This document shows, in pieces, positions 26,686-43,513 of a stretch of 64,000 nt of DNA. The notes below the pieces were generated by a model. That model saw only the letters and a program-made list of their open reading frames with translations, searched no databases and was not told the origin of the DNA. This DNA comes from Psychrobacter sp. Choline-02u-9 (GTDB lineage Bacteria > Pseudomonadota > Gammaproteobacteria > Pseudomonadales > Moraxellaceae): the NCBI RefSeq assembly GCF_002836505.1, contig NZ_PJBF01000040.1:310001-374000 (forward strand), in the 5' to 3' direction. Made by a program: the position numbers and the translations under genes. Position 1 is the stretch's first letter. Each line of letters opens with the position of its first letter.

Positions 26686-27261
26686 ATGGCTTTATCACTT
26701 AATAAAGGCGGTAATTTATCGCTAACGAAAACTGACCCAAATTTAACCAAACTACTTATCGGTCTTGGTTGGGATGAGCGCGCCACTTCTGGTGCTGAGT
26801 TCGACCTTGATGCTAGCGTATTTTTGCTAAATGGCGCAGGTAAAGTGCGCGGCGATCATGACTTTATCTTTTATAATCAGCTGAAGTCTGACAATGGCGC
26901 TGTCGAGCATACTGGCGACAACCGTACTGGCGAAGGCGACGGTGATGATGAAGTTATCAAAGTAAACCTCACTCAAGTACCTGCAGACGTAGATAAAGTA
27001 GTCGTGACAGTGACTATTCATGACGCGGCTGCGCGTAGCCAGAACTTTGGTCAAGTCGCAAACGCCTTTATCCGCGTCGTCAATGAGGAAACAGGCACTG
27101 AAGTGGTACGTTTTGATTTAGCAGAAGACTATTCTGTTGAGACAGCAATGGTGTTTGGCGAAGTATATCGTCACAATGGCGAATGGAAATTCCGTGCTGT
27201 TGGTCAAGGCTATTCAGGCGGCTTGCAAGCGATGTGTCAGCAATACGGTGTTGATATCTAA
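26686..27261 (+). CDS. terD: TerD family stress protein (first copy)
   Basis: 191-residue cytoplasmic protein. Residues 3-20 follow the family opening ([16 protein letters not shown]). The calcium-binding motifs [10 protein letters not shown] and [13 protein letters not shown] are intact, and the protein ends [17 protein letters not shown]. TerD proteins bind Ca2+ and take part in tellurite, oxidative and phage-related stress responses; exact activity is unknown. AAGGA precedes the ATG. It opens the Ter island, followed after a terminator by the TerC-like gene. TerE is an alternative name that sequence alone cannot exclude. Confidence 0.93.
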
Positions 27262-27402
27262 AACCATTATTTACTGGTATTTAGTCAGTTATTAGTCACC
27301 GTCATCACGTCCAAAATAGCAAACCGCCATCGTTGCAAATAGTCACAATTTTTAATGGCCAAATGACTAGTAATGCTTTACGTTTCGTTTAAAATTATGC
27401 AT

Positions 27403-27431
27403 AAAAAGTGGTTAGTAATAACCGCTTTTTT
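27403..27431 (+). terminator. terminator after first terD
   Basis: AAAAAGTGGTTA and TAACCGCTTTTT form a stem with one G-T pair and a 4-base loop. Confidence 0.75.
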
Positions 27432-27488
27432 GCGGTTCATGCCTATACTAGGTAGACCTTAGCTTTACGCAACCATACAGGATGTGTC

Positions 27489-28556
27489 ATGAGACATTTT
27501 TATTTAGACTTTATCTTCACCGCAATTGCTTTGGCAATAGCAGCATGGTGGGGATATTCACATGGTGGTATGGGTGGCATGATAGCCACTCTTTCTATTA
27601 CCGCTATTTTGGCCGTCATGGAGATTTCATTATCTTTTGATAATGCGGTGGTCAATGCTTCAGTCCTTAAGGGCTGGGACGAATTTTGGAAAAAGATATT
27701 TTTAACCGTTGGTATCCTAATCGCCGTATTCGGTATGCGATTGGTCTTCCCTATTGTCATCGTCGCGGTTACTGCTGACCTTGGTATGATGGAAGTTATC
27801 AACTTGGCTTTATATAGCCCTGAAGAGTACTCAGCAAGACTGATGGCACACCATGCAGAAATCTCAGCATTCGGTGGTATCTTCTTACTATTGGTATTCT
27901 TGAACTTTATTTTTGATGACAAAGACGTACATTGGTTTGACTGGCTTGAGAGCCGTTTAGCCAAGCTAGGTAAAGTCGATGCTATGAGCGTATTTGTAGC
28001 GCTTATCGTCTTGATGATCGCGGTATCATGGGCCAATGCAGAGCAGTCAAGCGCTGTCCTAATCGCAGGTGTTTGGGGTATCTTGGTTTATCTGGGCGTA
28101 CAGGTTGTATCGGGTATGCTTGAGGGCGATCTGGAAGAAGACCTAGAGAACGAAGAGAATGGTTCGGGCGCTGCAGCGACAAGTGCCATTATGAAAGGCG
28201 GTATCATTGGTTTCTTATACTTAGAAGTCCTAGATGCTTCATTCAGTTTTGATGGTGTGATTGGGGCATTTGCAATTACCAATGACGTGATTGTTATCAT
28301 GTTAGGTCTTGCGATTGGTGCGATGTTCGTACGTTCTATGACTATCTTCTTGGTAGACAAAGGCACGCTTGACGAGTTCATCTATCTTGAGCATGGCGCA
28401 CATTATGCCATCGGCGCATTGGCACTGATTATGCTATTGTCAGTGAAGTTCCATGTACCAGAGATTATAACTGGTCTGATTGGTATTGCCTTTATTGGTT
28501 GGGCGCTGCTAGCGTCACTTCAGCATCGTAAGGCTGAAAGAGCCACTCTGAACTAA
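27489..28556 (+). CDS. DUF475 membrane protein, TerC superfamily
   Basis: 355 residues with about nine hydrophobic segments. The N-terminal part has MEISLSFDNAVVNASVL and the second half VLDASFSFDGVIGAFAI, the duplicated acidic motif (SxDN / SFDG) of the TerC-like superfamily. The spacing and overall sequence fit DUF475 rather than classical TerC. TerC-like proteins are integral membrane partners of TerD-type proteins and are linked with metal (manganese) export or sensing. AGGA precedes the ATG. Its place directly after terD supports a Ter role. Confidence 0.88.
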   Translation: MRHFYLDFIFTAIALAIAAWWGYSHGGMGGMIATLSITAILAVMEISLSFDNAVVNASVLKGWDEFWKKIFLTVGILIAVFGMRLVFPIVIVAVTADLGMMEVINLALYSPEEYSARLMAHHAEISAFGGIFLLLVFLNFIFDDKDVHWFDWLESRLAKLGKVDAMSVFVALIVLMIAVSWANAEQSSAVLIAGVWGILVYLGVQVVSGMLEGDLEEDLENEENGSGAAATSAIMKGGIIGFLYLEVLDASFSFDGVIGAFAITNDVIVIMLGLAIGAMFVRSMTIFLVDKGTLDEFIYLEHGAHYAIGALALIMLLSVKFHVPEIITGLIGIAFIGWALLASLQHRKAERATLN

Positions 28557-28601
28557 AGCCCTTTGTAGGCGCAGTACGCTTTGTATTTAGTTATTATTCG
28601 A

Positions 28602-28636
28602 GCAGGTCATATCATCAGGTATGGCCTGTTTTTTTG
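28602..28636 (+). terminator. terminator after the DUF475 gene
   Basis: CAGGTCATA and TATGGCCTG (one wobble) with an 8-base loop precede a seven-T run. Confidence 0.82.
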
Positions 28637-28807
28637 TCATATTATTTCGCCATACTGCTAGGTCATATTGAAGCCCCAAGATATCGAAATGACCCATAAT
28701 TGAGACAATCAATGGTTAAAACTACGTTTGCCCTGTTACTATTACCCTATCTTCAGTTAAAATCCTCGTCCTTAAATAACTTGTCGAAATAAGACCCTAT
28801 AAACGAT

Positions 28808-29728
28808 ATGCAAAAAATTCTTGATGATATTGCTGCAGAGATGGCAAGAGAAACTGACCGCGGCAAAGTCGCAGATTATATCCCTCAATTGGCTCATATT
28901 GATCCTAATCAGTTCGGTATAGCCGTAGCGACTCCTGATGGGCATATGTATGCAGCAGGTGATGCAAGCACTCTGTTTTCCATCCAAAGTATCTCTAAGG
29001 TATTTACCTTAACCATTGGTCTTGGCAAGCTAGGCGATACACTTTGGACACACGTCGGACGCGAACCATCTGGCGATCCTTTTAATTCAATTGTGATGCT
29101 CGAGCATGAGTCTGGCCGACCGCGCAACCCATTTATCAATGCTGGTGCCATTGCCGTGGTGGATGCTATTATGATGGGGCATAAACCTAAAGAAACACTG
29201 GGTGAAATCCTGCAGTTTGTTCACCTCATTGCAGATGATGAGTCAATTCGCTTTGATCATAAAGTAGCGGCTTCTGAGATGGCGCACAAGGACCGAAATG
29301 CCTCTCTGGCGCACTTTATGAAATCCTTTGGTCGTTTAAAACACGATGTGGATAATGTATTAGGTACGTATTTTCATCAGTGCTCGATTGCAATGAACTG
29401 TCAACAGCTGGCTAGTGCCGGTCTTTATTTAGTGTCTAACGGAGTTGATAAGCACTCAGGAGTACGTGTAATCAATGAAAAAAGAGCACGCCGTATTAAC
29501 TCATTGATGATGATGTGTGGTCATTATGATGGTTCTGGCGAATTTGCTTACCGTGTGGGCTTACCAGGCAAAAGTGGTGTTGGTGGCGGTATTTTGACGA
29601 TAGCACCTGGTAAAGGGTCTATCGCTGTCTGGTCGCCAGGGCTTGATCATGTAGGTAACTCTAAGCTTGGACTAAAAGCACTAGAGCGCTTCGTACAAAA
29701 AACTGGCTGGTCGGTTTTTGCAGAATAA
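28808..29728 (+). CDS. glsA: glutaminase A
   Basis: 306-residue serine-dependent beta-lactamase-like glutaminase hydrolysing glutamine to glutamate and ammonia. FSIQSISK places the catalytic pair at Ser61 and Lys64; [13 protein letters not shown], and [18 protein letters not shown] are conserved. Length equals that of the E. coli enzymes. Glutaminase release of ammonia supports acid tolerance in enterics. The gene lies inside the Ter island between the TerC-like gene and the second terD but with its own flanking spacers, so a functional link is only suggested by position. No strong ribosome site precedes the ATG. Confidence 0.93.
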
Positions 29729-30182: not shown

Positions 30183-30758
30183 ATGGCTATTAGCTTAACA
30201 AAAGGCGGCAACGTAAACTTATCAAAAGAAGCGCCAGGTTTAACTAACATTACAGTCGGTCTAGGCTGGGATCCACGTGCCACTGACGGCCAAGAGTTTG
30301 ACTTAGATGCAATCGGTTTCTTGATTAACGAAGCAGGCAAAGTCCGTAACGACCAAGATTTTATCTTTTTCAATAACCTAAAATCAGACAACGGCGCTGT
30401 TGAGCATACTGGTGATAACCGTACTGGCGAAGGCGATGGCGATGATGAGAAAATCAAAATCAATCTTGCGAGCATTCCAGCTGACGTCAACAAAGTAGCT
30501 ATCTGTGCCATCATCTATGAAGGCCAAGCACGTAACCAAAACTTCGGTCAAGTTGGTGATGCTTATATTCGCGTTGTAAACGACAATGGCGAATCTGAAA
30601 TCGCTCGTTATGACCTATCAGAAGACGGCAGCACTGAAACAGCGATGATTTTCGGTGAATTATATCGTCACAGCGGTGATTGGAAATTCCGTGCGGTCGG
30701 TCAAGGCTTCAGCGGTGGTCTTGGACCATTAGCAGCCTCTTATGGCGTAAATGTTTAA
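30183..30758 (+). CDS. terD: TerD family stress protein (second copy)
   Basis: 191 residues, collinear with the copy at 26686 ([13 protein letters not shown] start, [23 protein letters not shown] calcium motif, [19 protein letters not shown] end). Both copies keep the acidic Ca2+-binding residues. AAGGATA precedes the ATG. It begins a + strand run with the AIM24-type gene and the third terD. Which copy corresponds to TerD and which to TerE of plasmid operons cannot be told from sequence by eye. Confidence 0.93.
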
Positions 30759-30793
30759 CGTTAAGACCAACGTAAACGTTTAGCAAGCCAATT

Positions 30794-30819
30794 ATCATAA
30801 TCAGACGTCTGGTTATGAT
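30794..30819. repeat. 26-bp near-perfect palindrome downstream of second terD
   Basis: The two 13-base halves (beginning ATCATAATCAGAC) pair completely except for one T-G pair, with no loop. It lies 36 bases after the terD stop and before a weaker hairpin. It could be an operator or a structure in the mRNA. Confidence 0.4.
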
Positions 30820-30825
30820 CTAATG

Positions 30826-30862: not shown

Positions 30863-30964
30863 TTAAATTTAATTGGCTTATCATTAAAAGCTATAGAGCA
30901 CATAAAAGCACACGCACACATTAAGAGCATTCAACAAAGATATTAGAATAAGGATTTGCAAGCC

Positions 30965-31717
30965 ATGGCCGCAACATTCAGTTTAATCGGTACTATTGAA
31001 CCTTTTTTGCATTGTAATCTTAAAAAAGGCGATTCAATTTATTGTGAGGCCAATGCGATGGTAATGATGGAGTCCAATCTTGAGCTGAAAGGTAAGCTAC
31101 AAGGTGGGCTGATGCAGTCACTGATGCGCCGCTTTGCAAACGATGAATCGTTGTTCCAACAGCAGATTGAGGCAGTTAATGGTGAAGGCGACTGTTTGCT
31201 TGCGCCCACGCTCGATGGTGATATGCAAATCATAGAAGTTGGTAAGCAGCAGTATACATTGAGTGATGGTGCGTTTGTCGCGGCTCAAACTGGCGTCGAT
31301 ATCAGAGCCAATATTCAGCGCAATTTAGGCGGTGCAGTGTTTGGTGATACAGGCGGCTTTATGGTGATGCAGACCCAAGGTCAAGGCCAAGTCGTGGTAT
31401 CTGGTTTTGGCTCGTTGTTTGAGATTGATGTTACACCAGACAAAGACGTCATTATTGATAACGGTCATGTGGTCTGCTGGGATTCGAACCTTGAATACAA
31501 GTTGTCAGTTTCGACCAGTAAGAAAAAAGGCATCATGAGCAATATTATTAACTCTGTCACCAGTGGTGAAGGTATGGTTCTGAACTTCTCAGGAAGTGGC
31601 AAAGTCATTATTTGCTCGCGCAATCGTGACAGTTATCAAGGTTGGATACAAAGCGTCCTAGGTAGTAGCTCAGGCGGACGTGGCGGCGGTGGTGGCTTTT
31701 TAGACAATATCTTATAG
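30965..31717 (+). CDS. AIM24 family protein (TIGR00266 type)
   Basis: 250 residues from ATG 30965, selected because AAGGA lies 10 bases before it; a TTG three codons upstream is less likely. The protein is beta-rich with the AIM24 pattern: an N-terminal jelly-roll half (KKGDSIYCEANAMVMME), then GGFMVMQTQGQGQVVVSGFG and VIDNGHVVCWDSNLEYK, and a glycine-rich tail of about 15 residues (SSSGGRGGGGGF). Such proteins commonly occur next to TerD genes; molecular function is unknown. It lies between two terD genes on one strand, and is probably a component of the same stress system. Confidence 0.85.
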   Translation: MAATFSLIGTIEPFLHCNLKKGDSIYCEANAMVMMESNLELKGKLQGGLMQSLMRRFANDESLFQQQIEAVNGEGDCLLAPTLDGDMQIIEVGKQQYTLSDGAFVAAQTGVDIRANIQRNLGGAVFGDTGGFMVMQTQGQGQVVVSGFGSLFEIDVTPDKDVIIDNGHVVCWDSNLEYKLSVSTSKKKGIMSNIINSVTSGEGMVLNFSGSGKVIICSRNRDSYQGWIQSVLGSSSGGRGGGGGFLDNIL

Positions 31718-31793: not shown

Positions 31794-32402
31794 ATGGCAG
31801 TTAGTCTTCAAAAAGGTCAAAAAATCTCCCTAAGCAAAGAAGCTGGTGGCGAGCTAACTCAAGTTAAACTAGGTCTAGGCTGGGATGTCGCGCAAGGGCC
31901 ACAGGATAAAAAAGGTGGCTTCTTAGGAAAATTATTCGGCGGCGGTTCTGGCGGCGACTCTATCGATTTAGATGCTTCATGCATCATGTTCGATGCTAAC
32001 AAGCAAGCGGTCGATGCCATTTGGTTCAGTCAGCTAAAATCGAAAGATGGCAGTATCGTGCATACTGGTGACAACCGTACTGGCGACGGTGATGGCGATG
32101 ATGAAGTCATCAACGTCGATCTCTCAAGAGTACCTGCCAATGTGGTCTCATTGGTATTTACGGTCAATAGCTTTACCGGTCAAACGTTTGAAACGGTAGA
32201 AAATGCGTTTTGCCGTATCGTTAATGCCAATAATAATAGCGAAGTAGCACGTTATAATTTGTCTGCACAAGGTGGACATACAGCGATGGTAATGGCAAAG
32301 GTCTATCGTCATAACAATGAATGGAAAATGCATGCGATTGGCGAGACAGCTTCTGGCCGTACTTTCCACGACTTAATGCCTGCTATTACTCCGCATGCAT
32401 AA
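31794..32402 (+). CDS. TerD family stress protein with glycine-rich insert (third copy)
   Basis: 202-residue TerD-domain protein. It keeps SIDLDASCIMFD and the calcium motif GDNRTGDGDGDDE, but has an insert at about residues 35-55 (KKGGFLGKLFGGGSGG) between the first strands and the acidic motif, and its C-terminus (GETASGRTFHDLMPAI) differs from the other two. The insert is like that of TerZ or TerX-type family members. AAGGATA precedes the ATG, and it starts 76 bases after the AIM24 gene, likely co-transcribed. Confidence 0.9.
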   Translation: MAVSLQKGQKISLSKEAGGELTQVKLGLGWDVAQGPQDKKGGFLGKLFGGGSGGDSIDLDASCIMFDANKQAVDAIWFSQLKSKDGSIVHTGDNRTGDGDGDDEVINVDLSRVPANVVSLVFTVNSFTGQTFETVENAFCRIVNANNNSEVARYNLSAQGGHTAMVMAKVYRHNNEWKMHAIGETASGRTFHDLMPAITPHA

Positions 32403-32414
32403 TGGACTTGAGAC

Positions 32415-32444: not shown

Positions 32445-32454
32445 TAGTTTATTT

Positions 32455-32525: not shown

Positions 32526-33800
32526 CTATTTACGTCCACGCTTCCAGCTAAAGCCCCAATTAAACGCTTTGTCCATCTCTTGATGACCTTTGAAATATTG
32601 GTTGATACGCTCAACATTGATACTGCCTTGTTGATTGACCAAACGGGCAATGGCACACATCGGTAAGTTACCAGCACCTTCGGTCAAACGTGTCTCAATC
32701 GGTGATTGCTCTGGCACATGGATAGTCACGACCCCATCGGTTTTTTCCCAGTTAGGTGCGCCTTCGTAGATAAATGCAAAGATAAATACCTCTTCAATCT
32801 GCGACCATTGCTGACCATTGATATCCAGCCATTCACCGCCACTTACCTGCCCCGTTCTATCATCCGCACGTAGGCAAACATAAGGCGCTGATTGTAAACT
32901 ACCAAAGCGATTACCTAACGCTTGAATCAGGGTTTTTTCACCATTTTTTAGATGAATCATAGCGCCGACATCTAGATCGATACTGCTTGATTGATGCTGC
33001 TTAAATAAATCACCCAGTATGCCTTTCTTGGGCGCTGCTTTATCATTTTGCGGGCGTTGATTCCAATCTAAATTGACCGAAATTTTGCCGAAATCATCAC
33101 GTTTCTTAAGATTGATGCTAGATTGGTTTTTGGTTAAGGTTATTTTACTTAAGTTAATCGAAGGACTGGCAGGAATCGGTGGTGGGTTGTTAGTTTGAGA
33201 CGTGTTGCCTGCTTTCTGCGTATTGATTGGTCGCTGCGTGTTGATAGGTTGAGTTTGGCTTTGTGCAGGGTTATGATTTTGAGCAGGTGCGTCATCAGCG
33301 ATTTCCACACCAAAATGCTCAGATAAAGGTTTTAACCCTCCCTCAAATCCTTGGGCGATAAAACGAAATTTCCAGCTTCCTTGTCTTCGATAGCATTCAG
33401 CCAATATAATGGCTTTTTCATTACGTCCAGCACTACTCAGTTGACAGGTCATTAGCACCTGACTACCCTGTAAGACTTGAATGTCCACATCGCCAACTTG
33501 TGATAATGTTTGCGCACTAGAGAACGCTAGGGCAATTTTCTCAATAGTTGCAGGCTGTGCAGACAAATTGACATCAAAAAAACCATCACTGTCATGACCA
33601 CGGAAGCTAACACTACCATCATCGCTACGTGTCTGACCATAAAATATCATGTCACCATCACCGCGCACTTTGCCGTCATTAGTCAGGCGATAAGCAGCAC
33701 AATCGATAGCATTTTGGCTTAAAATACGAATGCTAATATTGTCAGTCGGTAGTGGCGCATTGGCACCTGCAATTAGTTTTTGAGGTTGGTTTTGACTCAT
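32526..33800 (-). CDS. TerA-like protein with two divergent TerD-type domains
   Basis: 424 residues from the ATG at 33800, which is better spaced from AAAGGA than the ATG one codon earlier. Domain 1 (about residues 10-170) follows the TerD pattern but its calcium loop is degenerate (GQTRSDDGSVSFRGHDSDG) and it ends GQGFEGGLKPLSEHFGVEI. A Gln/Pro/Thr-rich linker (170-215, repeated PINTQ) joins domain 2 (215-424), which has SSIDLDVGAMIHL and RADDRTG and ends in NWGFSWKRGRK, as TerA proteins do. It is on the opposite strand from the TerD genes and converges on them. A name such as TerA or generic TerD family protein is equally defensible. Confidence 0.82.
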   Translation of the reverse strand: MSQNQPQKLIAGANAPLPTDNISIRILSQNAIDCAAYRLTNDGKVRGDGDMIFYGQTRSDDGSVSFRGHDSDGFFDVNLSAQPATIEKIALAFSSAQTLSQVGDVDIQVLQGSQVLMTCQLSSAGRNEKAIILAECYRRQGSWKFRFIAQGFEGGLKPLSEHFGVEIADDAPAQNHNPAQSQTQPINTQRPINTQKAGNTSQTNNPPPIPASPSINLSKITLTKNQSSINLKKRDDFGKISVNLDWNQRPQNDKAAPKKGILGDLFKQHQSSSIDLDVGAMIHLKNGEKTLIQALGNRFGSLQSAPYVCLRADDRTGQVSGGEWLDINGQQWSQIEEVFIFAFIYEGAPNWEKTDGVVTIHVPEQSPIETRLTEGAGNLPMCAIARLVNQQGSINVERINQYFKGHQEMDKAFNWGFSWKRGRK

Positions 33801-34088
33801 CATACGTCCTTTAGATTATTTATTATGCTGTTGTCATTGTCATGCTGACTGTCGTCATATAGTAGCATGGATATTATGAAAATTTTGAACCAGACAATCG
33901 CGATATAAGCGCTAAAGTCGTCCTTACAAATCCCTATGACTATTTTATTAGAGGCGTTTATAACGCATATCATTTGTATATAATACGTCCTATTAAACCG
34001 TATACCTTTGCTAATATTACTACTAGATTTGCAGTAGCAATATTGACTTGCCCATTCCCCTACACCTAATGATAACGCTGAGAGAATT

Positions 34089-35240
34089 ATGAATAATCTT
34101 GCTGACAATAGTAACCCTTCAATGCCAGTAGCGGCGTGGTTAGCTGAAGGTCAATCTAGCCAGCGTGATATGTTGGAGAGCTTACAAAGTCTAAAGAGCA
34201 AATCAAACAGTCCTTCAAACAACCCTTTTCAAGTTATTGCCTCACATCGTCATGATAGGCCTGAGATTTTCGAATTCGCCGATATGGTTTATCGCGAGCC
34301 ATCTGACTCGATTATAGATACTGATATCCAAATGACTGATGAAACTGCCATACCACGCTGGCAGTTCGTATTGGAGCAAGCTCAAAAGCATAACGTAAAA
34401 GTACTGCTGACTGGGCGCAATGGTATTGATTATGAAGTGCATCGTGAGAAATTTGACGCTGCTGGTATTCGCTTATTGACGGGCGCAACCAGCGTAACAG
34501 CACTAGAATCAATCGATGATAAATTTGCTTTTATGCAGCATTGTCACACTCATAACATTCCAGCGGCAGACGCATGGCGTTTTAATAATACGGCGGAGCT
34601 TGAGGATTTATTAGCCAAATATGGTGACCAACCTCTATGCGTGAAACCTGTTGTCGGTATTTTTGCACAAGGGTTTTGGCGACTAGACACTGGTAAAGAA
34701 TATGACGAGCAGTACGATAGCTTTGAGCACTTATATTTCACTGAAGAGAAAAAAATCAACACAGCTCAGTTTGTGAATGCCTATACCAACAGCCAAATGG
34801 TACACGAGCGCCCTATTCCAATGCTGCTAATGCCTTATCTGTCAGGGCAAGAGTACTCTATCGATGTAGTCTGTGAATATGGCGAAGTCCTAGCTGCTGT
34901 CACTCGTCATAAAACAGGAAAGATACAACACGTTGGTTATGAGCAGTCTGTCATGGATGTCGTAATCCCACTGATTAGGGCTTTTGGCTGTGATGGCATC
35001 GTCAGTGTACAAACCAAAGCTGATGATAGTGGTCAACACCGAGTTCTTGAGATTAATAGCCGTCCATCAGGTGGTATTGGTTATACTTCTCATAGTGGGA
35101 TCGACTTAACGCAAGTCGGATTTTCTTATTGGTTGGGGCTATCAGAGAAACCTAACTTAGAGACCAATATTCAGCATATTGAACCATGCCAAGTACGCTC
35201 TATTATGATGAGTGTCAAAATTGAAAAGGATGACGAATGA
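34089..35240 (+). CDS. ATP-grasp enzyme of the Ter biosynthetic module
   Basis: 383 residues. After an N-terminal Rossmann-like part (about residues 1-140, with LLTGRNGIDYEVH) comes the ATP-grasp fold: SIDDKFAFMQHCHTHNIP, PLCVKPVVGIFAQGFWRL (nucleotide-binding lysine), MPYLSGQEYSIDVV, and RVLEINSRPSGGIGYTSHSGIDL containing the metal-binding E-x-N. These enzymes ligate a carboxylate to an amine or thiol via an acyl phosphate. In Ter clusters an ATP-grasp protein accompanies PRTases, HAD and CitE-like enzymes. Divergent from the TerA-like gene across 288 bases; GAGAG precedes the ATG. Substrate unknown. Confidence 0.85.
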   Translation: MNNLADNSNPSMPVAAWLAEGQSSQRDMLESLQSLKSKSNSPSNNPFQVIASHRHDRPEIFEFADMVYREPSDSIIDTDIQMTDETAIPRWQFVLEQAQKHNVKVLLTGRNGIDYEVHREKFDAAGIRLLTGATSVTALESIDDKFAFMQHCHTHNIPAADAWRFNNTAELEDLLAKYGDQPLCVKPVVGIFAQGFWRLDTGKEYDEQYDSFEHLYFTEEKKINTAQFVNAYTNSQMVHERPIPMLLMPYLSGQEYSIDVVCEYGEVLAAVTRHKTGKIQHVGYEQSVMDVVIPLIRAFGCDGIVSVQTKADDSGQHRVLEINSRPSGGIGYTSHSGIDLTQVGFSYWLGLSEKPNLETNIQHIEPCQVRSIMMSVKIEKDDE

Positions 35241-35370: not shown

Positions 35371-36111
35371 TTACTCGCCAAAGGCTAGTGTCGCTTGCTT
35401 AGGTGCATTTTTAGAAGCAATGACCCATAGTAAGCTCAATACGATTGCTGAACCGATGAAGATCATAATAGATGAAGAGATGGCACCTGCATGGGTATAA
35501 TCCATAGGCATTGTGTGATCAGTCATCGTCATTTCCATCGCGGCTATACCAGTGTAATGCATACCACAAACGGCAAGACCCATGATGAAGGCACTACCAA
35601 AACGCTGTAATGTACCACGTAGATTGAATGCCAACCATAGCGCAGCGATAGCAGCTGCGATAGCAATCACAATCGATAGGATAAGCAGCGGTATATTGTA
35701 CGACATGGTAGCGTCCATCTGCATAGAGGCCATACCGGTATAATGCATGGCTGCAACACCCAGTCCAGTAAGTACGCCGCCACCGATTAGCTTAGCAACG
35801 CTTGGCTCACCGCGACCTACGATGACAATACCGACTGCAACGAAACAAATCGCGAGTAGCATTGAGACAATTGTTAACCCTAAGTCATAGGTCACAGGCA
35901 TTTTCATATCTACTGCCATCATACCGATATAGTGCATAGACCAAATCGCACCACCGATAGCAATCGATGATAGCGCTACCCAAAAATACAAATCTGTTCC
36001 TGGCTTGGCAGAAGGTACTCGAATGGCAAGGTTTAAGCCAACATAAGAACCAAATACTGCAATGGCGTATGAGACCAACACCAAAAGTAAGTTATATTCA
36101 ACTTCCATCAT
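35371..36111 (-). CDS. stand-alone MHYT-domain membrane sensor
   Basis: 246-residue protein with seven hydrophobic segments and three copies of the MHYT signature (WSMHYIGMM, AAMHYTGMA, CGMHYTGIA), which are thought to bind a metal, perhaps copper, and sense oxygen, CO or NO. There is no GGDEF, EAL or kinase domain attached, unlike many MHYT proteins, so any output must come through a partner. The most likely partner is the V4R-like protein encoded 122 bases upstream on the same strand. The first of two ATGs is preceded by AAAGGC. Confidence 0.85.
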   Translation of the reverse strand: MMEVEYNLLLVLVSYAIAVFGSYVGLNLAIRVPSAKPGTDLYFWVALSSIAIGGAIWSMHYIGMMAVDMKMPVTYDLGLTIVSMLLAICFVAVGIVIVGRGEPSVAKLIGGGVLTGLGVAAMHYTGMASMQMDATMSYNIPLLILSIVIAIAAAIAALWLAFNLRGTLQRFGSAFIMGLAVCGMHYTGIAAMEMTMTDHTMPMDYTHAGAISSSIMIFIGSAIVLSLLWVIASKNAPKQATLAFGE

Positions 36112-36233
36112 TTTTTTGCCTTTTATCTATCATAAGAATTGAGTCAAATAACGTTACTTTTATTGCAACACGGTGCGTCATTCACTCGTTGATTTTTTTG
36201 CATAGACATGAAATTATCTACACACAGTTTTTC

Positions 36234-36941
36234 TTACCCAATGGTAAATTCGCAAATATTGGTACTGCCTGCGCCGCAGTTAGTCTCTTCAACTTGAACC
36301 ACATCTATAGCAGGGTTGCTTGCCAAAAAGCCTTCTATATAACCTACAATAAAATGGCATCCTGAGTGAGTATGATCTGACGACTTACAGAACGGACATT
36401 TGATTAAATAAATTACATTGTTTTTTGCTTTAACTTTAGATAGGCCTTTTAGTGCTGGCACAAGCTCACGAGTAATCGTAGTAGGCATCTTCAGTGGACT
36501 ACCAAGTGAATAATCACGCTGGTAAATGCCGCCACCAACCTTACGACCCAATTCTTGCAATGCCGTCACACGTCGCTCAATAGGCAAACTATCTTCATAC
36601 TGGCTGACAATATCTGCTATTTTAGGGTAATAAGCACCAATGGCTGATAAGACGCTTTTCTCATCCAATGTCTTTTTTGCAGGGGCAGCTGACGATCCGC
36701 CTTCTTCTTCTATTTCTAGATTAAAAAGCGTACAACCTTCAATTGAAGACAAGTCATCGATTAGATCTTCCTGCGTTTTAGAGCCCAGGCTTCTTGCGAT
36801 CACATGAATGATATTACCACCATTCTCTGAAGGTTCTTGCTTTTGGGAGACTAGCTGATAACCTGCTTTGATAAGCGGCGAAATAACATTGACCAGACGA
36901 ATACGTTCAGAAGACGTTTCTAATGCACAAGAGAATTTCAC
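36234..36941 (-). CDS. V4R-like domain protein, probable sensor
   Basis: 235 residues from GTG 36941, with AGGAG six bases before it. The N-terminal part (1-85) resembles a small alpha/beta regulatory domain. The C-terminal 150 residues follow the V4R pattern: YYPKIADIVSQYEDSL, LGRKVGGGIYQRD, then CPFC at about 180, SGCHFIVGYIEGFLA, and the terminal VEETNCGAGSTNICEFTIG, where V4R proteins carry the conserved cysteines. V4R domains bind small molecules, often via metal or heme. The assignment rests on this C-terminal pattern only. Likely co-transcribed with the MHYT gene. Confidence 0.6.
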   Translation of the reverse strand: MKFSCALETSSERIRLVNVISPLIKAGYQLVSQKQEPSENGGNIIHVIARSLGSKTQEDLIDDLSSIEGCTLFNLEIEEEGGSSAAPAKKTLDEKSVLSAIGAYYPKIADIVSQYEDSLPIERRVTALQELGRKVGGGIYQRDYSLGSPLKMPTTITRELVPALKGLSKVKAKNNVIYLIKCPFCKSSDHTHSGCHFIVGYIEGFLASNPAIDVVQVEETNCGAGSTNICEFTIG

Positions 36942-37662
36942 AGAGCACTCCTTTTCTTAAAATACTGTTACGCTTTCTTATATCAAGCTATCTAGATAAG
37001 CTAATGTGAATAACGTTTCAAAGGTCCACCAACTGACTTTCTCACAATATAAAAAATATTCAGACATCAACCACACAATAGTTTTTGTATATCTTTTATA
37101 TTATAAGAAATGAACTATATTCAGTAGATGAAATTTCGATTTTTATAGTTATTAAGCATACAAGTGCTCTAACTACTAGAAATTCATTAATCGCGAAACA
37201 GTAACAAGCTTGAAAATAAGATTAGAATTAATAGTTTTGAATCAGATCCTATTTTTAAACTTTACAGATAACATTTGGTCACAGTAGAGTTACTAAATAG
37301 CAATAGATTTTGATTGTATTATCACCGGAATCCTGTTTTGTAGCAATACACTATATGGCTTTGTCCGATAAGTGGCTCCATTAGCCGACAAATGGCTAGA
37401 CTATAAAACCCCATCATTATTTTCTAAAAGTAATTAATTATTAAAAGGAATTCCAAAACTATTTAAACCTATATATCTTGATATATCTATTATGCAATTA
37501 ATCTTAACTGTATATTAAAACATCTATTAATGTTTTCTCTTTGTAGAATGGTAGGTTCGAAATAAAATCAAAAACCTTTGTATAGTCAGACTTTAGTCTC
37601 AAGGATAAAATCATTAAACAATAAAAATAATTATAATCACGCAAATAAACTAAGGAAATGTG
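36942..37662. other. long AT-rich intergenic region upstream of the TerD-protease operon
   Basis: About 720 bases, markedly AT-rich, divergent, with no convincing gene. It has a tandem 13-base near-repeat at 37366-37397 and AT-rich stretches where promoters for both directions must lie. Its size and composition stand out from other spacers here. Confidence 0.5.
37366..37397. repeat. tandem direct repeat, 19-base period
   Basis: CCGATAAGTGGCT and CCGACAAATGGCT (11 of 13 identical) start 19 bases apart, about two helical turns, 270-300 bases upstream of the TerD-protease operon. Possible regulator-binding pair. Confidence 0.35.
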
Positions 37663-38889
37663 ATGTTGAAGCAAGTCGAATTAGTGCTAGGAGCCAATAC
37701 GGTTATCGAAAATACAAAGTGTTCGATCGCATTTTCTACTACTAAATCATTAGAGTTTGGACAGCAGCTTGGACTATTGTGGTTGCCATTAGATGCCAAT
37801 CGTAAAGCAGTTTGTAGTCCTGCTTATTTACATGAGTCTAAAGACTGGGCTCAGCTCGATAGCAAGGATAATCCAAGTACATGGCAGTTAGATTTACCCC
37901 AGTTATTTGATAAAAATAATGTTAGTTTCTTACAACTGATTGCTTATGTTTATCATGATCCAAGCCTAAACTTGCCAGCGGTAGAGTTAAATGACGTAAG
38001 CCTCACGCTCAACAACGGGGATATTCGCTATAACTTCACAACGAACGAGCGGCATGTCAAAGCGGCGATTATATTAGAAATATATCAACGTAATAGACAT
38101 TTCAAATGTCGTGCGCTTGGCGAGGCATCAACCCAAGGCTTAGCGAGCCTTGAACATCATGTACAGGTTAGTCTGGATATTCGTCCACCTAGCACACATA
38201 CACTTATTCAAGAAGCGCAACAGCAGCAGCGTACTCAACCAAACAACGAAGCTCGCCCTCCCCGTCATGTACAAGCAGGCGAGACTTGGACAGGAACAGC
38301 GTTTGCTATTGATCCCTATCATCTGCTGACCTGCTATCATGTGATTGAGTCAGCAGCAATGGTTGGCATACGTCAGCAAGGTCAGCCTGATCGCGAGGCA
38401 CAAGTCGTATTCAGCGATATCGGAAGCGATTCAGCTATTATTAAAGTTAGCGACCCTTTGCCTAGCTACCTCCCATTGGCGCAGCAATGTGTTGATATAT
38501 TGGGTGAGACCATTACCACACTGGGGTTTCCGTTATCAGGACTGAGTAGCCAACTGCAAGTCACTCAAGGCTGTATATCAGGATTGACAGGTTTAAATAA
38601 CGATATCCGTCATATACAGTTCACCGCACCCATTCAGCCTGGATCTAGTGGTAGTCCTTTATTATTGCTGACTGGAGAGGTAGTCGGTATGGTCACATCA
38701 AGTCTGGTTCATGAACATGCACAAAATATGAACTATGCGGTGAAATTTCAGTTATTATCTGCCCTACTGGCGAGCGCTGGCATCAGTTTGGAGAACACGA
38801 CTGATTTGACCAGTTCTACGCCTCTTACAACACCTCAGCTAAGCAAGCAAAGTCGCAGTGCCTTATGGCTAGTTGGCTGTCAGGGTTAA
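37663..38889 (+). CDS. TerD-like/trypsin-like serine protease fusion
   Basis: 408 residues from ATG 37663, with TAAGGA seven bases ahead; a GTG one codon earlier is possible. Residues 1-172 follow the TerD scaffold, ending RHFKCRALGEASTQGLASLEHHVQV, but lack both calcium motifs (GLLWLPLDANRKAV stands where DLDAS is expected). After a Gln-rich linker comes a trypsin-like domain (about 200-385) with all three catalytic residues: His226 in TCYHVIE, Asp256 in GSDSAII and Ser329 in QPGSSGSPLL. There is no signal peptide, so it should be a cytoplasmic protease. First gene of the five-gene operon reaching 43513; ends 42 bases before the PRTase gene. Confidence 0.85.
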   Translation: MLKQVELVLGANTVIENTKCSIAFSTTKSLEFGQQLGLLWLPLDANRKAVCSPAYLHESKDWAQLDSKDNPSTWQLDLPQLFDKNNVSFLQLIAYVYHDPSLNLPAVELNDVSLTLNNGDIRYNFTTNERHVKAAIILEIYQRNRHFKCRALGEASTQGLASLEHHVQVSLDIRPPSTHTLIQEAQQQQRTQPNNEARPPRHVQAGETWTGTAFAIDPYHLLTCYHVIESAAMVGIRQQGQPDREAQVVFSDIGSDSAIIKVSDPLPSYLPLAQQCVDILGETITTLGFPLSGLSSQLQVTQGCISGLTGLNNDIRHIQFTAPIQPGSSGSPLLLLTGEVVGMVTSSLVHEHAQNMNYAVKFQLLSALLASAGISLENTTDLTSSTPLTTPQLSKQSRSALWLVGCQG

Positions 38890-38931
38890 AAATCTACGAC
38901 GACATACAAATAAAAGCGCCAAGGAATATGA

Positions 38932-40263
38932 ATGTTAAATGAGCAACACAGTACGACCATCACCCTACCCCGTGGTACGCTAGATCTGACTTACCAAACC
39001 AATTCAGCCACTAATAAATCAGTCACTAATAAAAATGGCGTAGAACAACGCGACCGTTATCAATTAGAAGATTTGCTAGGATTTGCACAGCGTATTAATC
39101 CAAAACGGGCGTTTCTGTTTGTCTCAAAAGTGCTAGGTCGTCATATTCCCGTTGCGCCAAGCACTATGCGAAACGCATTTACTGATTTGGCTGATTTAGT
39201 GCCTAGTGACTTGGCCGAACCAGTGCTAGTCATTGGTATGGCAGAGACCGCTGTTGGTCTATCTGCTGGTGTCCATCAAGCGCTACAAACGCGCTATCCT
39301 CAAGCTCTGCTATTGAACTCTACGCGTCATGCACAGCACGATGAGAGTAACAATGCAAATGGTAGTGATGCCAATGATACCGACTCTTTACTGACGACGT
39401 TTTGTGAAGATCACAGCCATGCCAGCCAGCATTTGATTTATCAGAGCAAAGATAGCGTTACTCAAGCGCAGCTACTGGCCAGTAAAACACTAATTATGGT
39501 CGATGATGAAGCCTCAACGGGTAATACCTGTGTGAATGTCGTCACGGCCCTACGTGAAGCAGGATTGAACCAGTTAGAGCAAGTGCATCTAACAACATTG
39601 GTCGACTGGTCATTAGATCAAGAAAAACCTCACCCACAGTCAGATGCTAAGCCTGCACGTATGGCCGATCGTCTCGCTAGTATTGAGTTTCATCGCCATC
39701 ATTTATTGTCTGGTGCCTGGCAATGGACAGATGCACCCAATCCTGAACCCATCACGATGCCATCGGTTGATACTACTGCCGCTGGTAGTCAGGCGCTCGG
39801 TGATACGGGCAACTGGGGGCGTTTTCCAACGCTAGACAGTACAGAGGGTTTTGCTAACTATCTTTCAAGTTTTCAGACTGCATTTACGCGCTTCGATGGC
39901 CAAGAAAACTTTGATGTTACTCAGCTACCAAAAAGAATCTTAGTATTGGGTAGCAATGAGTTTGTTTGGTTGCCATTTTTATTGGCTCAATGGCTTGAAA
40001 CAGAGTCAGACAAACTCAACGACGATACAGCGTCCATGGTTAATTTTAGCGCTTTAACCCGCTCACCGATTGCGCTTGGTGGAGCGATTACTACGATGCT
40101 AAGCTTTAGCGACAATTACGGGCTTGGTATGACCAATTTTGCTTATAACGTTGAGCCTAGTGATTGGGATTTGATAGTGTTGTGTGTAGAAACATCAGCT
40201 GATAGTGTGGATGCTATGTGGCGAGGTTTGGATAACGTGCTGGTGGTGAGCCCTAGTCTTTAA
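38932..40263 (+). CDS. phosphoribosyltransferase with TRSP domain
   Basis: 443 residues. The PRTase half has VLVIGMAETAVGLSAGV and the PRPP-binding motif LIMVDDEASTGNT (acidic pair at residues 191-192). The C-terminal half contains TRSP (376-379) in SALTRSPIALG, diagnostic of the TRSP domain found with these PRTases, and FAYNVEPSDWDLIVLCVET near the end. AAGGA precedes the ATG. PRTases use PRPP to glycosylate or exchange a base. In Ter clusters this protein is one of two PRTases predicted to build a nucleoside-like compound; no biochemical activity is known to me. Confidence 0.88.
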   Translation: MLNEQHSTTITLPRGTLDLTYQTNSATNKSVTNKNGVEQRDRYQLEDLLGFAQRINPKRAFLFVSKVLGRHIPVAPSTMRNAFTDLADLVPSDLAEPVLVIGMAETAVGLSAGVHQALQTRYPQALLLNSTRHAQHDESNNANGSDANDTDSLLTTFCEDHSHASQHLIYQSKDSVTQAQLLASKTLIMVDDEASTGNTCVNVVTALREAGLNQLEQVHLTTLVDWSLDQEKPHPQSDAKPARMADRLASIEFHRHHLLSGAWQWTDAPNPEPITMPSVDTTAAGSQALGDTGNWGRFPTLDSTEGFANYLSSFQTAFTRFDGQENFDVTQLPKRILVLGSNEFVWLPFLLAQWLETESDKLNDDTASMVNFSALTRSPIALGGAITTMLSFSDNYGLGMTNFAYNVEPSDWDLIVLCVETSADSVDAMWRGLDNVLVVSPSL

Positions 40264-40305
40264 ATTGCTCTCTAACTTTCAAACCTATTATTTACGGACG
40301 ACACC

Positions 40306-41136
40306 ATGACTACCTCATTTTTTAAAGCTAGCCCAGACATTATTAAGCCTTATGCCTTGATGGATTTGGATGATACGTTATTCCAAACCCAGCGCAAAAT
40401 CGACGCTTGGGATTTGCTCACTACTGAGCCTGAATCTTTGGTATGTGCAACAGTCAATAAGCAAGACGAGCCTTTGAGCTTTATGAGCCAGCGCCAAGCA
40501 ACCTTTTTTAATTGGTTACTTGCTAGCACTGAATTAATTGTAGTGACGGCACGGGATCGTAGTGAAATCAAACGCGTTAAGCTGCCCTTTGATAGTTGGC
40601 AAGTATTAACTCATGGGGCGATTATTTTAACGTCTGATGGAGCGCTGCTAAGCAGTTGGCAGCAGCATATGTATAGTAAGCTCGCGCCATTGCAAAATAA
40701 GCTTAATAAGTTAAGCGAATTATTTGCCAGTCATAGTCAAAGCGAGCAAAGTCATTTAGTATTCACACCGCATATCGATAGCTTTAACAATGGTTCTGTT
40801 GATGAAGAGCTAACCATTTATCTGGCTGTCAAACATGCGCAGAAAGATCATCAAGCGCTCGTAGATTTAGCTGAGAAACTGCCCACTCTGATACGTGATT
40901 TTGATCAAGATTTCTATGTTCATGTGAATGCCAATAACCTAGCGATATTGCCCCATGCGGTTCATAAGCGTCATGCGGTACAGTTTTTATTAGAGCATCA
41001 TTTAGACCATCAGCGTCCCAGTTTTGGTTTTGGTGATAGCTTAGCTGACCTGCCTTTCTTACAGTTATTGGACTGGTACGGTATGCCCAATCATGGCCAA
41101 TTGCATGAGCAATACCAGTCTAAATTGTCAGGCTAA
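40306..41136 (+). CDS. HAD superfamily hydrolase
   Basis: 276 residues. LMDLDDTLF at residues 18-25 is HAD motif I, with nucleophile Asp20 and general acid Asp22. VVTARDRSE carries the motif II threonine and FGFGDSLADLPFLQLLDWYG is motif IV with its acidic residues. The cap region lies at about 100-215. It is most like sugar-phosphate or nucleotide phosphatases. It sits between the two PRTase-type genes with 42- and 65-base spacers, so it probably removes a phosphate from an intermediate of the same pathway. Substrate unknown. Confidence 0.88.
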   Translation: MTTSFFKASPDIIKPYALMDLDDTLFQTQRKIDAWDLLTTEPESLVCATVNKQDEPLSFMSQRQATFFNWLLASTELIVVTARDRSEIKRVKLPFDSWQVLTHGAIILTSDGALLSSWQQHMYSKLAPLQNKLNKLSELFASHSQSEQSHLVFTPHIDSFNNGSVDEELTIYLAVKHAQKDHQALVDLAEKLPTLIRDFDQDFYVHVNANNLAILPHAVHKRHAVQFLLEHHLDHQRPSFGFGDSLADLPFLQLLDWYGMPNHGQLHEQYQSKLSG

Positions 41137-41201
41137 ACCACGAGTTTAAACTGCAGCCACGCAAATCCACTGTTATCATCAAGAGTGCTACTATTCATAC
41201 T

Positions 41202-42383
41202 ATGACTTTACCTAATATACAGATAAAAAGAGCCGATTTAAAAAACTATGGCTCAGGCAGCTATCTTGCAAGCGATGTCACTGTCCTACTCGATATGGTA
41301 GATAAGGACGCGGTTGCCGATGTGCCCGTCAGTCAAAAAGAAGCACTTATCCAAAGCGGACAACGCCATTACTCTGACATGCTGACCTTAGAGCAAGCAC
41401 CTACTGCAATGCATGAGCAGCTATACATACAGGCGTTAGAGCAAGGGTCAACAAGGACCGCGACTGATATCGCTCATTTGTCTCATACGCTACATCAGCT
41501 GTTCCAGCAGGACGTGAGTGATGAGCATCCACTGGTTTTGGTCAGTTTGGTGCGAGCTGGTCTGCCAATTGGTGTGTTATTGCAGCGTGCGCTGTCGGAT
41601 ACAGACAGTAGCTATCGCTTGCCAAGTGTACATTATGGCATCAGTATCATTCGCGATCGTGGTCTTGATCCAGTGGCCCTGCAAATGCTACTAGAGGCTT
41701 ATCCAAACAGTCCAGTCGTATTCGTCGATGGCTGGACAGGTAAAGGTGCCATATATCAAGAGTTGGCTCGCAGTCTAGAGACGTTTAGCGATTCTACTCA
41801 TGTTAATTTTGCCAACATTTTCCATCAAGGCGCTGACGTCATTCCGTTACTGACTCTTGCCGATCCGGCTGGCGTTGCTTGGCTCGCGGCAAGTGAAGAA
41901 GACTGGTTGATCCCATCGGGTTTGTTAAATAGCACCGTATCGGGATTAATTTCACGTAGCTTGTATACAGAGCCATCATCAGGCCTGCATCGCAGTGTCT
42001 TTTATGATGATTTAATTGAGGTAGATCACAGTTTGGCATTCGTCGAGCATATCGATGCCGCGAAACGATCATTGGCTACTACTCCAGTGCGTCTACCGAC
42101 TTACCAGCAGCCACGCTACCAGACTGCGGCGTTGATAGAGACGTTGGCCGCAGACTATAAGATTATCAATCGCAACCGTATTAAGCCGACTATTGCCGAG
42201 GCAACACGTGCCATATTACGCCGTGATCCAGAGCGTATATTGCTCGCCACTGCTGAGCACCCTGATACCGTACTGCTACGCCACTTATGTGCGCAACGAA
42301 ATATCACTATCAGTGTATTAGGTGATAGAATACTGCCTTATCAAGCCATCACGCTTATCAAGCAGCGCTCCCAAGACACTTAA
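41202..42383 (+). CDS. StiP-type PRTase-like protein with PELOTA RNA-binding domain
   Basis: 393 residues. SLVRAGLPIG (115-124) and FVDGWTGKG (about 174-182) form a PRTase-like nucleotide pocket. YGISIIRDRG lies between them. The C-terminal 100 residues (ARAILRRDPERILLATAEHP onward) match the PELOTA RNA-binding fold. Databases name relatives cysteine protease StiP, but the only cysteine here is Cys363, in the PELOTA part, so a cysteine protease role is not supported. A PRTase acting in the Ter biosynthetic module is favoured. No strong ribosome site; co-transcribed with its neighbours. Confidence 0.85.
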   Translation: MTLPNIQIKRADLKNYGSGSYLASDVTVLLDMVDKDAVADVPVSQKEALIQSGQRHYSDMLTLEQAPTAMHEQLYIQALEQGSTRTATDIAHLSHTLHQLFQQDVSDEHPLVLVSLVRAGLPIGVLLQRALSDTDSSYRLPSVHYGISIIRDRGLDPVALQMLLEAYPNSPVVFVDGWTGKGAIYQELARSLETFSDSTHVNFANIFHQGADVIPLLTLADPAGVAWLAASEEDWLIPSGLLNSTVSGLISRSLYTEPSSGLHRSVFYDDLIEVDHSLAFVEHIDAAKRSLATTPVRLPTYQQPRYQTAALIETLAADYKIINRNRIKPTIAEATRAILRRDPERILLATAEHPDTVLLRHLCAQRNITISVLGDRILPYQAITLIKQRSQDT

Positions 42384-42439
42384 TACATTTAACGGTATTA
42401 AATACTTTCTTTTTCGTTCTCTTATACTCTCTACTTATG

Positions 42440-43513
42440 ATGCCAATTATGTCAGATATGCTAAAAACCGAGTCAGACCTTTACAATGATACCCAATCTT
42501 ATGCGCATCTGATCACTGAGCGTCATGCGATGGTCAAACCACACACGCACCATCCATATCAGCTCGGTGCTAGCTTATACATGCCTGCGACTCGCCAAGA
42601 TATTTGGCAAGTCATCAAGCGAGATAAATTACCGACGATTAATAGTATTATTATCTGTCTAGAGGATGCGGTCAGTCAGCAGGATGTAGAGTTGGCGCTT
42701 GAGCGTTTGCGCACCCTGCTCGATACATGGGCTGAGCATGTGAATAGCATTAATGCGCCATCTAAATCGGCGAAAATTCATGCTCAGCACCCGACACGTC
42801 CATTGGTTTTTATACGTCCACGTAGCCCGATGATGCTACAGCAACTGGCTGACTACACCCATATCGATCTTATCGATGGTTTCGTTATGCCAAAAGTTGA
42901 TATGTATAGCTTATCTAACTGGCGCATGGCTTGTCAGAACCTAAAAGTAGATCAACTACTTATGCCGACGCTCGAAACCGCAGCGCTATTCAATCCGCAT
43001 CACAATCAAGAGCTTGCCATCGCTTTTAAAGAAGCGTTTAGCCAACCAGTTTTTGCATTGCGTATCGGCGGTAATGACTTATTCGCAGCACTGCGCTTAC
43101 GCCGCCCAAAGAACAGTATTGTCTATGAATCGCCTATCGGTACGTTGGCTTATCAAATGCTTGGCTGTTTTGTACCGCATGGTTTTTATCTTACCGCGCC
43201 AGTATTTGAGTACTTGGATCAGCCGACGCTGTTTATGCAAGAGCTGAACCGAGACGTCAGCTTAGGGATGGTAGGCAAAACTGTCATTCATCCAAGCCAA
43301 ATCGCCCTAGTACAGCAAGCTTATTGCGTGCCATTGAGTACACTGGATGAAGCACAAGCGATCCTTCACTCTGAGGCCAAAGCAGTGTTTAAGTACAATA
43401 ATACGATGCTAGAGCCTGCGACGCACCGTGCTTGGGCGACTGAAATTGTTAATCGTGCAGAAGCCTTTGGTACCATTGATGACGGACATAGCCAATACAG
43501 CTCACGAATGTAG
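42440..43513 (+). CDS. HpcH/HpaI aldolase, CitE-like
   Basis: 357 residues from ATG 42440; 42437 and 42449 are also possible starts. It is a TIM-barrel enzyme of the citrate lyase beta-subunit/aldolase superfamily: IICLEDAVSQQDVE (metal-binding glutamate and aspartate), FVMPKVDMYSL, LMPTLETAALF, FALRIGGNDLFAAL and VGKTVIHPSQIALVQ are conserved. No citrate lyase alpha, gamma or CitX genes are present, so fermentation is unlikely; such proteins recur in Ter biosynthetic modules. It is the last gene of the operon, followed by a strong terminator 50 bases on. Confidence 0.88.
   Translation: MPIMSDMLKTESDLYNDTQSYAHLITERHAMVKPHTHHPYQLGASLYMPATRQDIWQVIKRDKLPTINSIIICLEDAVSQQDVELALERLRTLLDTWAEHVNSINAPSKSAKIHAQHPTRPLVFIRPRSPMMLQQLADYTHIDLIDGFVMPKVDMYSLSNWRMACQNLKVDQLLMPTLETAALFNPHHNQELAIAFKEAFSQPVFALRIGGNDLFAALRLRRPKNSIVYESPIGTLAYQMLGCFVPHGFYLTAPVFEYLDQPTLFMQELNRDVSLGMVGKTVIHPSQIALVQQAYCVPLSTLDEAQAILHSEAKAVFKYNNTMLEPATHRAWATEIVNRAEAFGTIDDGHSQYSSRM

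Follow-up and report, generated by a model that had tools for sequence, protein, structure and literature searches.

A chromosomal Ter island in Psychrobacter with a predicted nucleoside-like metabolite pathway and TerD-hydrolase fusions

Gene content of the island

The stretch of DNA analyzed in this work (G000:C3:310001-374000, 64,000 nucleotides; hereafter, the window) comes from Psychrobacter sp. Choline-02u-9 and contains, at positions 26686-43513, a chromosomal Ter island. Open reading frame (ORF) calls and Pfam profile matches for the window proteins bear out the gene inventory of an initial annotation: three TerD proteins, a TerC-related membrane protein, a TerA-like protein and an AIM24-type protein, together with ATP-grasp, phosphoribosyltransferase (PRTase)-TRSP, HAD, StiP/PELOTA and CitE-like genes. 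We hold, with about even confidence, that the two proteins with PRTase features, the phosphatase, the C-C lyase and the ATP-grasp enzyme encoded here build a phosphoribosyl-derived (nucleoside-like) molecule sensed by TerD-domain proteins, a TerD-trypsin fusion being likely one effector. The features of the island are as follows.

26686..27261, + strand: TerD (PF02342, 294 bits), with DLDA and GDNxTGxGDGDDE motifs
27489..28556, + strand: TerC-like membrane protein, DUF475 type (PF04332, 382 bits; PF03741, 57 bits)
28808..29728, + strand: glutaminase (PF04960, 391 bits), between the TerC-like gene and a TerD gene; judged accessory
30183..30758, + strand: TerD (PF02342, 282 bits)
30956..31717, + strand: AIM24-type protein (PF01987, 184 bits; TIGR00266, 147 bits), from a TTG start; in-frame ATG at 30965
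31794..32402, + strand: TerD with a glycine-rich insertion (PF02342, 190 bits)
32526..33803, - strand: TerA-like protein (PF02342, 103 bits, residues 32-164)
34089..35240, + strand: ATP-grasp ligase, Ter type (ATPgrasp_Ter; PF15632, 113 bits)
35371..36111, - strand: MHYT gene, in the interval from ATP-grasp to the fusion; regarded as accessory
36234..36941, - strand: V4R gene (below the Pfam cut-off), in the same interval; regarded as accessory
37660..38889, + strand: fusion of a TerD-like part with a DegS/HtrA-like trypsin, opening the enzyme operon (PF13365, 77.5 bits; PF02342, 23.1 bits, cut-off 25.3)
38293..38691, + strand: trypsin domain of the fusion, residues 212-344 (Pfam; DegS the best fold match)
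38932..40263, + strand: PRTase_2 + TRSP (PF15609, 169 bits; PF12500, 57 bits)
39502..39528, + strand: DDEASTGNT, canonical phosphoribosyl pyrophosphate (PRPP) motif of PRTase-TRSP
40306..41136, + strand: HAD phosphatase, orthologue of PDB 6d3v/6cj0 (2.5e-34, residues 14-269)
41202..42383, + strand: StiP (PRTase fold) with a PELOTA/L7Ae-like domain (Pfam)
41721..41753, + strand: FVDGWTGKGAI, divergent PRPP-binding-like loop of StiP, invariant in a 42-row alignment
42437..43513, + strand: CitE-like C-C bond lyase (C-C_Bond_Lyase; PF15617, 326 bits)

The Ter and enzyme genes had been described as adjoining, and they do occupy one stretch; this stretch, however, also harbors the glutaminase, MHYT and V4R genes and the TerD-trypsin fusion, and ATP-grasp is parted from the other enzymes by MHYT and V4R. 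The enzyme set had likewise been called complete, which is accurate for the five named enzymes; TerB and HAD-IB, an enzyme of plasmid systems, are missing. TerB (PF05099) had no match in the Choline-02u-9 genome (the E. coli control was positive), and the best candidate in that genome for HAD-IB, the plasmid-type second phosphatase located after the lyase, reached 22 bits and 23% identity over 58-161. Of the genes examined in this stretch, none was recognized as vWA or TelA. A genome-wide TerD search returned seven matches, namely the three TerD proteins, TerA, the fusion (below the cut-off) and one gene on each of two other contigs (G000:C5:44191-44694 and G000:C34:94865-95281).

Rfam yielded no family above gathering in the window, and a scan of 36900-44600 gave no usable signal (promoter-like sites numbered 24, with 17.3 expected, and terminator-like sites three, with 6.0 expected). 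The PHROGs families matched were those of proteases, membrane proteins and a hydrolase, with nothing for StiP, PRTase-TRSP, the lyase or ATP-grasp. PADLOC matched nothing but the trypsin domain, with E 5e-18 for its RT-protease model and 1e-5 for Ham.

The enzyme operon and its catalytic residues

Gene order was compared over 83 loci, 81 of them picked by StiP (80 representing the best of at least 586 relatives in named genomes, plus one phage) and two, from plasmids, by HAD; this set tests gene order and company, not frequency. Further loci (L084-L103) were also fetched, L087 and L089 duplicating parts of L019 and L020, so these additions are partly non-independent of the first 83. The closest named relatives of StiP among the matches listed are from Psychrobacter, at 95-97% identity. 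A HAD match is present in all 83 loci, PRTase-TRSP in 81, the lyase in 80, ATP-grasp in 65 and, as judged by clustering, the HAD-IB family in 30. PRTase-TRSP, HAD, StiP and the lyase are all full length in 74 loci, and in 73 they follow one another in this order on a single strand, an agreement beyond what chance would give, with all gaps below 300 bp in 69. The three junctions show overlapping ORFs in 53, 42 and 47 of these 73 loci, figures that depend on start sites chosen from the alignment, and because the frames overlap in this way the operon genes appear to be translationally coupled. Deviating arrangements occur in L077 (Desulfovibrio) and L074 (Mesorhizobium).

In 54 of the 74 loci with all four enzymes at full length, ATP-grasp is found upstream on the same strand. 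Its distance to the fusion is about 2.4 kb (about 2416 bp), filled by MHYT and V4R, in loci of the window type (L004-L007), whereas of the 29 loci measured, 23 have a gap of 40-158 bp. Given these tight gaps in most of the loci measured, the split of ATP-grasp from the operon is likely recent, and we infer the six-gene order to be the older state. A drop in GC content fits a later insertion: positions 36001-38000, at the MHYT/V4R block and the region upstream of TerD-trypsin, stand at 35%, against 39-46% in the other 2-kb blocks of the window. MHYT, V4R and glutaminase were considered as pathway members and rejected, being found in 7, 7 and 2 of the 83 loci, respectively; many of these loci stop short of the place of glutaminase, which was also seen in L098.

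At the class level, StiP exceeds the cut-off in 7 of 184 gammaproteobacterial genomes, and a strong lyase (PF15617 above 240 bits) is found in six of these seven and in none of the 177 others. Weaker PF15617 matches, present in 52 of the 184, are probably other lyases. Co-occurrence of ATP-grasp is uninformative at this level, with PF15632 matching 175 of 184 genomes, and many of its matches are apparently carbamoyl-phosphate-synthase-like proteins of ~1075 aa. Of 60 Psychrobacter genomes, 55 carry StiP; statistics for both genome sets are uncorrected for kinship. StiP relatives were located in 2568 plasmid records, 1684 of them typed as conjugative, and HAD relatives in 2554, a comparison of totals only. 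In the P. aeruginosa plasmid CP109686 (L001:5023-8871) an IS1182 transposase gene sits between ATP-grasp and PRTase, and the TerD-trypsin match there is in two pieces. The jumbo phage in the set, Acinetobacter phage vB_AbaM_ME3 (L003), carries TerC, TerD, PRTase, HAD and StiP, and no lyase or ATP-grasp was recognized in the 17 kb fetched.

The enzyme-Ter link advanced by the initial annotation is borne out as a gene neighborhood, since at least one recognized Ter gene occurs in 78 of the 83 loci. The enzymes might nonetheless serve in repair or salvage on their own and have only a stress regulon or the neighborhood in common with the Ter proteins. According to passages of two papers, ter genes by themselves confer tellurite resistance, E. 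coli MG1655 needing no more than terZ-F (PMC8115787) and E. coli DH5alpha no more than terCD (PMC8779313), so that the enzyme arm must serve something else or something additional; for the same reason, comparing wild type with an enzyme deletion under tellurite, as had been proposed, is a weak test. In addition, five loci (L011, L024, L074, L076 and L081) showed no Ter gene over the length fetched; L076 and L081 are on contigs shorter than 9 kb. On the other hand, the neighborhood persists across Moraxellaceae, Pseudomonas, Burkholderia and Enterobacterales, with a reduced form in the jumbo phage, and we regard a separate function as unlikely.

A different proposal would have the operon make an exported natural product or signal, with the Ter proteins acting in self-protection. 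In five Psychrobacter loci (L011:2471-8569, L099, L101, L102 and L103) PRTase-TRSP and HAD are separated by a same-strand dppABCDF-like dipeptide ATP-binding cassette (ABC) transporter, which may move a precursor or product or may be a chance insertion, and the abundance of Ter enzymes on plasmids, many of them conjugative, would also agree with export. However, the binding protein of this transporter appears at high identity in 5 of the 103 loci and window searched, Dpp-type ABC systems are importers, no export gene was recognized by Pfam in the window operon, and the near-constant presence of StiP in Psychrobacter is unlike that of a patchy weapon. An exported product is therefore very unlikely. 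Other genes occupy neighboring positions in Psychrobacter: an unnamed protein of ~230 aa, membrane-bound by its look, lies between PRTase and HAD (L010:8429-9112, L086:6571-7266 and L091:6657-7340), and P. glacincola (L015:6573-7661) encodes, between TerD-trypsin and PRTase, a DnaJ-domain protein (28.1 bits, cut-off 27.8) whose N-terminal part includes a hydrophobic stretch.

The catalytic residues of the enzymes are well conserved. PRTase-TRSP bears the canonical PRPP motif as generally defined, with D191, D192, E193, G197 and T199 in 79 of 79 rows and T196 in 78, and the C-C lyase keeps E76, D77, R127, E180 and D214 in 78 of 78. StiP is labeled a cysteine protease in databases, a role that we reject: its structure model shows a PRTase fold and there is no invariant catalytic cysteine, for the window protein has none in residues 19-284, 18 of the 83 domains have none at all and the best column reaches 54 of 83. 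Its loop DGWTGKG (D176-G182) is present in 83 of 83 domains.

The second domain of StiP raises the prospect that the enzymes modify RNA and make no free metabolite. StiP, with a PRTase fold joined to an RNA-binding domain of the L7Ae/PELOTA kind, would then transfer phosphoribosyl to structured RNA, or swap a base on it, and the other enzymes would finish or reverse the mark. A StiP profile searched against PDB retrieved L7Ae, eL8, S12 or Snu13 in 18 of the 19 sequences listed, conservation within StiP is among the highest in segment N325-R341, and there is a precedent in yeast Rit1, a PRTase-like enzyme that phosphoribosylates tRNA. Yet the L7Ae matches are weak (best E 0.046; a single-sequence search brought up nothing but two antibody chains, with E of 0.6-0.8), PRTase-TRSP has no RNA-binding domain according to Pfam, and an ATP-grasp ligase and a C-C lyase are better suited to the assembly of a small molecule, all of which makes RNA modification quite unlikely.

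The HAD phosphatase retains the DxDxT, Thr, Lys and Asp motifs of its family, with D20 and D22 in 82 of 83 sequences, T24 in 81, T81 in 82, and K221, D244 and D248 in all. The window protein matches PDB entries 6d3v, 6d3w and 6cj0 ('Trehalose phosphatase', P. aeruginosa) over nearly its full length (2.5e-34). Residues 7-247 of 6d3v are 99.6% identical to the product of a P. aeruginosa plasmid gene (CP109686.1:135550-136308) that lies inside a Ter operon and overlaps PRTase on one side and StiP on the other; the same arrangement recurs in plasmid Rms139, which has a 93.8% identical gene. The window HAD shares 85 of 250 aligned residues with the CP109686 protein and occupies the same operon position. 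The trehalose phosphatase label has been carried over into plasmid annotations of the Ter HAD family.

It could be argued from these names that the HAD protein is a genuine trehalose-6-phosphate (T6P) phosphatase and that the island serves trehalose metabolism, since its P. aeruginosa relatives were crystallized and studied as trehalose phosphatases and one is so annotated. The original paper on the P. aeruginosa enzyme reportedly described T6P hydrolysis. Passages of another study give phosphatase activity for an 'extra-chromosomal' P. aeruginosa enzyme within a panel of trehalose-phosphate phosphatases; T6P is mentioned there as what the nematode enzymes act on, and is not named for the bacterial panel (PMC6838324). 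The Cys85 and Cys231 given for that enzyme have the same spacing, 146, as the two cysteines of the 6d3v chain (87 and 233), and the two are therefore likely of one family. The Choline-02u-9 genome, in turn, has no match to T6P synthase (PF00982) or to Trehalose_PPase (PF02358), both of which were detected in the E. coli control, and in the absence of OtsA and OtsB matches we reject trehalose metabolism as the role of HAD. PF02358 fails to match the window HAD (E 0.001), and Pfam, searched up to E 0.1, finds nothing in the plasmid enzyme, which lies in a Ter operon. Among the 60 Psychrobacter genomes OtsA exceeds the cut-off in 24, StiP occurs without it in 34 and with it in 21, and the two are not associated (p 0.38); the 21 genomes with both speak against our rejection. 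A literature search produced, among the matches listed, none joining the trehalose-phosphatase term with tellurite. A genuine T6P phosphatase is thus extremely improbable, and T6P is taken here as a stand-in substrate.

TerD-fused hydrolases and the predicted signal

The first gene of the enzyme operon provides a candidate for the output of the pathway. The trypsin part of the fusion keeps its triad (H227, D257, as well as D253, and S330) in 35 of 35 rows, and DegS is its best fold match; no PDZ domain is among its Pfam matches, so that it resembles HtrA/DegS without being filed as such. Both parts lie in one frame in 35 of the 83 loci, in Psychrobacter, Pseudomonas and Burkholderia. Four full enzymes accompany the fusion in 33 of these, and in 26 of the 33 it lies at most 400 bp upstream of PRTase. 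All 38 of the 60 Psychrobacter genomes with a full-length TerD-trypsin are StiP-positive, and three others (G002, G022 and G038) contain fragments only, on the StiP contig and within ~3 kb. Loss of the protease with the enzymes kept fits a dispensable output better than a biosynthetic step, and fits a plain accessory gene equally well.

A second TerD-fused hydrolase turns up in the same slot. In 4 of the 17 StiP-positive Psychrobacter genomes without the full fusion a NYN-LOTUS-TerD gene directly precedes PRTase (L085, L086, L090 and L093), that place being outside the fetched stretch in another of the 17 (L099). Relatives occur in five of the first 83 loci, L008 (1655-3325), L017 (1660-2988), L021, L022 and L025 (6050-7747), the three with coordinates being Psychrobacter; in each case they lie beside TerD-trypsin, and the two genes are therefore not strict alternatives. 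Pfam recognizes NYN, OST-HTH and TerD in L017 and the same in L008, with TerD weak; the L021 piece has no TerD, and that of L022 covers the TerD side only. A protein search listed 46 relatives, 44 with precomputed NYN and TerD domains, and no report combining NYN and TerD was found among the literature matches listed.

In the pathway that we favor, PRTase-TRSP and StiP would use PRPP, HAD would take off the ribose phosphate, and the lyase and the ATP-grasp enzyme would attach an acyl or amino-acyl part. The product would bind TerD domains, and the TerD-trypsin protease would likely act on the signal of this molecule. Several observations weigh against this scheme, besides the tellurite data and the five loci without a Ter gene. 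We know of no product, substrate or phenotype; StiP may not be an active transferase, as its loop lacks the usual acidic pair of the PRPP motif. The TerD part of the fusion falls below the PF02342 cut-off in the window (the L002 orthologue reaches 33.2 bits) and the structure model of the whole fusion is only fair, with a predicted local distance difference test score (pLDDT) of 73.8 and a predicted template modeling score (pTM) of 0.49. The TerD part also lacks the DLDA and GDNxTGxGDGDDE strings, which have a role in calcium binding and are found in all three window TerD proteins. Calcium binding by K. pneumoniae TerD is stated in passages of PMC8779313, and any extension to the window TerD proteins or the fusion would rest on these strings. 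TerD-trypsin is absent or a remnant in 17 of the 55 StiP-positive Psychrobacter genomes, is absent from Enterobacterales, Acinetobacter and some Pseudomonas loci, and at the class level its N-terminal part appears in 3 of 184 genomes, two of them weak and one of these off the StiP contig. With the fusion missing from so many StiP loci, the pathway can do without it.

A bolder arrangement can be drawn by analogy with the cyclic-oligonucleotide-based antiphage signaling system (CBASS). The two PRTase-fold enzymes and their partners would make a nucleoside-like messenger with TerD domains as its receptors, and the slot at the operon head would hold executioners fused to TerD (a DegS-like protease, a ribonuclease of the NYN-LOTUS type, or the two together) switched on by it, in what would be a Ter counterpart of CBASS. 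We consider this speculative and unlikely. Under the pathway favored above, the TerD-hydrolase fusions would still serve as direct reporters of the missing molecule, namely a compound that alters the activity of a TerD-fused protease, and the chromosomal copy in Psychrobacter represents a convenient site to test Ter enzymes that are widespread on plasmids and chromosomes.

Comparison with known Ter systems

The best-supported reading of the island is that of Anantharaman, Iyer and Aravind (2012; PMC4104200), who, according to passages of papers citing them, described a module of two PRTases, a HAD phosphoesterase, a ligand-binding TerD and TerC, and proposed a nucleoside or nucleotide signal (PMC7824862, PMC5512222, PMC8115787). 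To this reading our analysis adds firmer ground for the phosphatase step and a candidate effector. It shows the gene set and its order, the conserved catalytic residues, the PRTase fold of the StiP model, the orthology of HAD with a crystallized phosphatase and the company kept by TerD-trypsin. With PRTase_2-TRSP, HAD, StiP-PELOTA, the C-C lyase and ATP-grasp next to TerD and TerC, the window has the composition of a Ter biosynthetic module. As far as can be judged from the citing papers, it shares with the 2012 module the PRTases, HAD, TerD and the TerC membrane protein, and departs from it in the missing TerB, the DUF475-type TerC, the TerD-trypsin heading the operon and the ATP-grasp gene set apart by an insertion.

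Klebsiella terZABCDEF is described, in passages of PMC8115787, with an adjoining putative biosynthetic operon. Two annotated plasmid stretches have the enzyme order of the window, but they contain TerB, another TerC type and HAD-IB; lacking TerB, the window is not a terZABCDEF tellurite operon, and without HAD-IB after the lyase it differs from the plasmid-type pathway. The ter cluster of P. glacincola BNF20, treated as a tellurite-resistance cluster (terACDEZ) in passages of PMC5822837, resembles the window in its inverted terA, its AIM24 gene and the absence of terB. Locus L015, on the BNF20 contig LIQB01000002.1, also has ATP-grasp, TerD-trypsin and the four enzymes, as in the window, and those passages do not discuss the enzymes. 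A TerD-trypsin protein of Pseudomonas syringae (YP_273108.1), with the same domain order as the window fusion, was not functionally characterized as of 2008, and the passages of PMC2605481 that deal with it do not mention its place in the enzyme operon or its co-occurrence with StiP.

The earlier claim that no product had been identified stands for the pathway as a whole, for which no report of a product was found among the open-licence papers listed, but relatives of one enzyme have been crystallized and assayed as trehalose phosphatase: 6d3v, 6d3w and 6cj0 are orthologous to the window HAD, share its operon position and were deposited and studied as trehalose enzymes. This name and that of 'cysteine protease StiP' mislead workers, and their correction brings a solved structure and a phosphatase assay to one step and groups StiP with the PRTases. 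As far as the partial sources go, the cluster type, the predicted pathway and the ter clusters of Psychrobacter (PMC5822837) were already known; what sets the island apart is the lack of TerB and HAD-IB and the TerD-hydrolase fusions at the operon head, and the two corrected names are of use.

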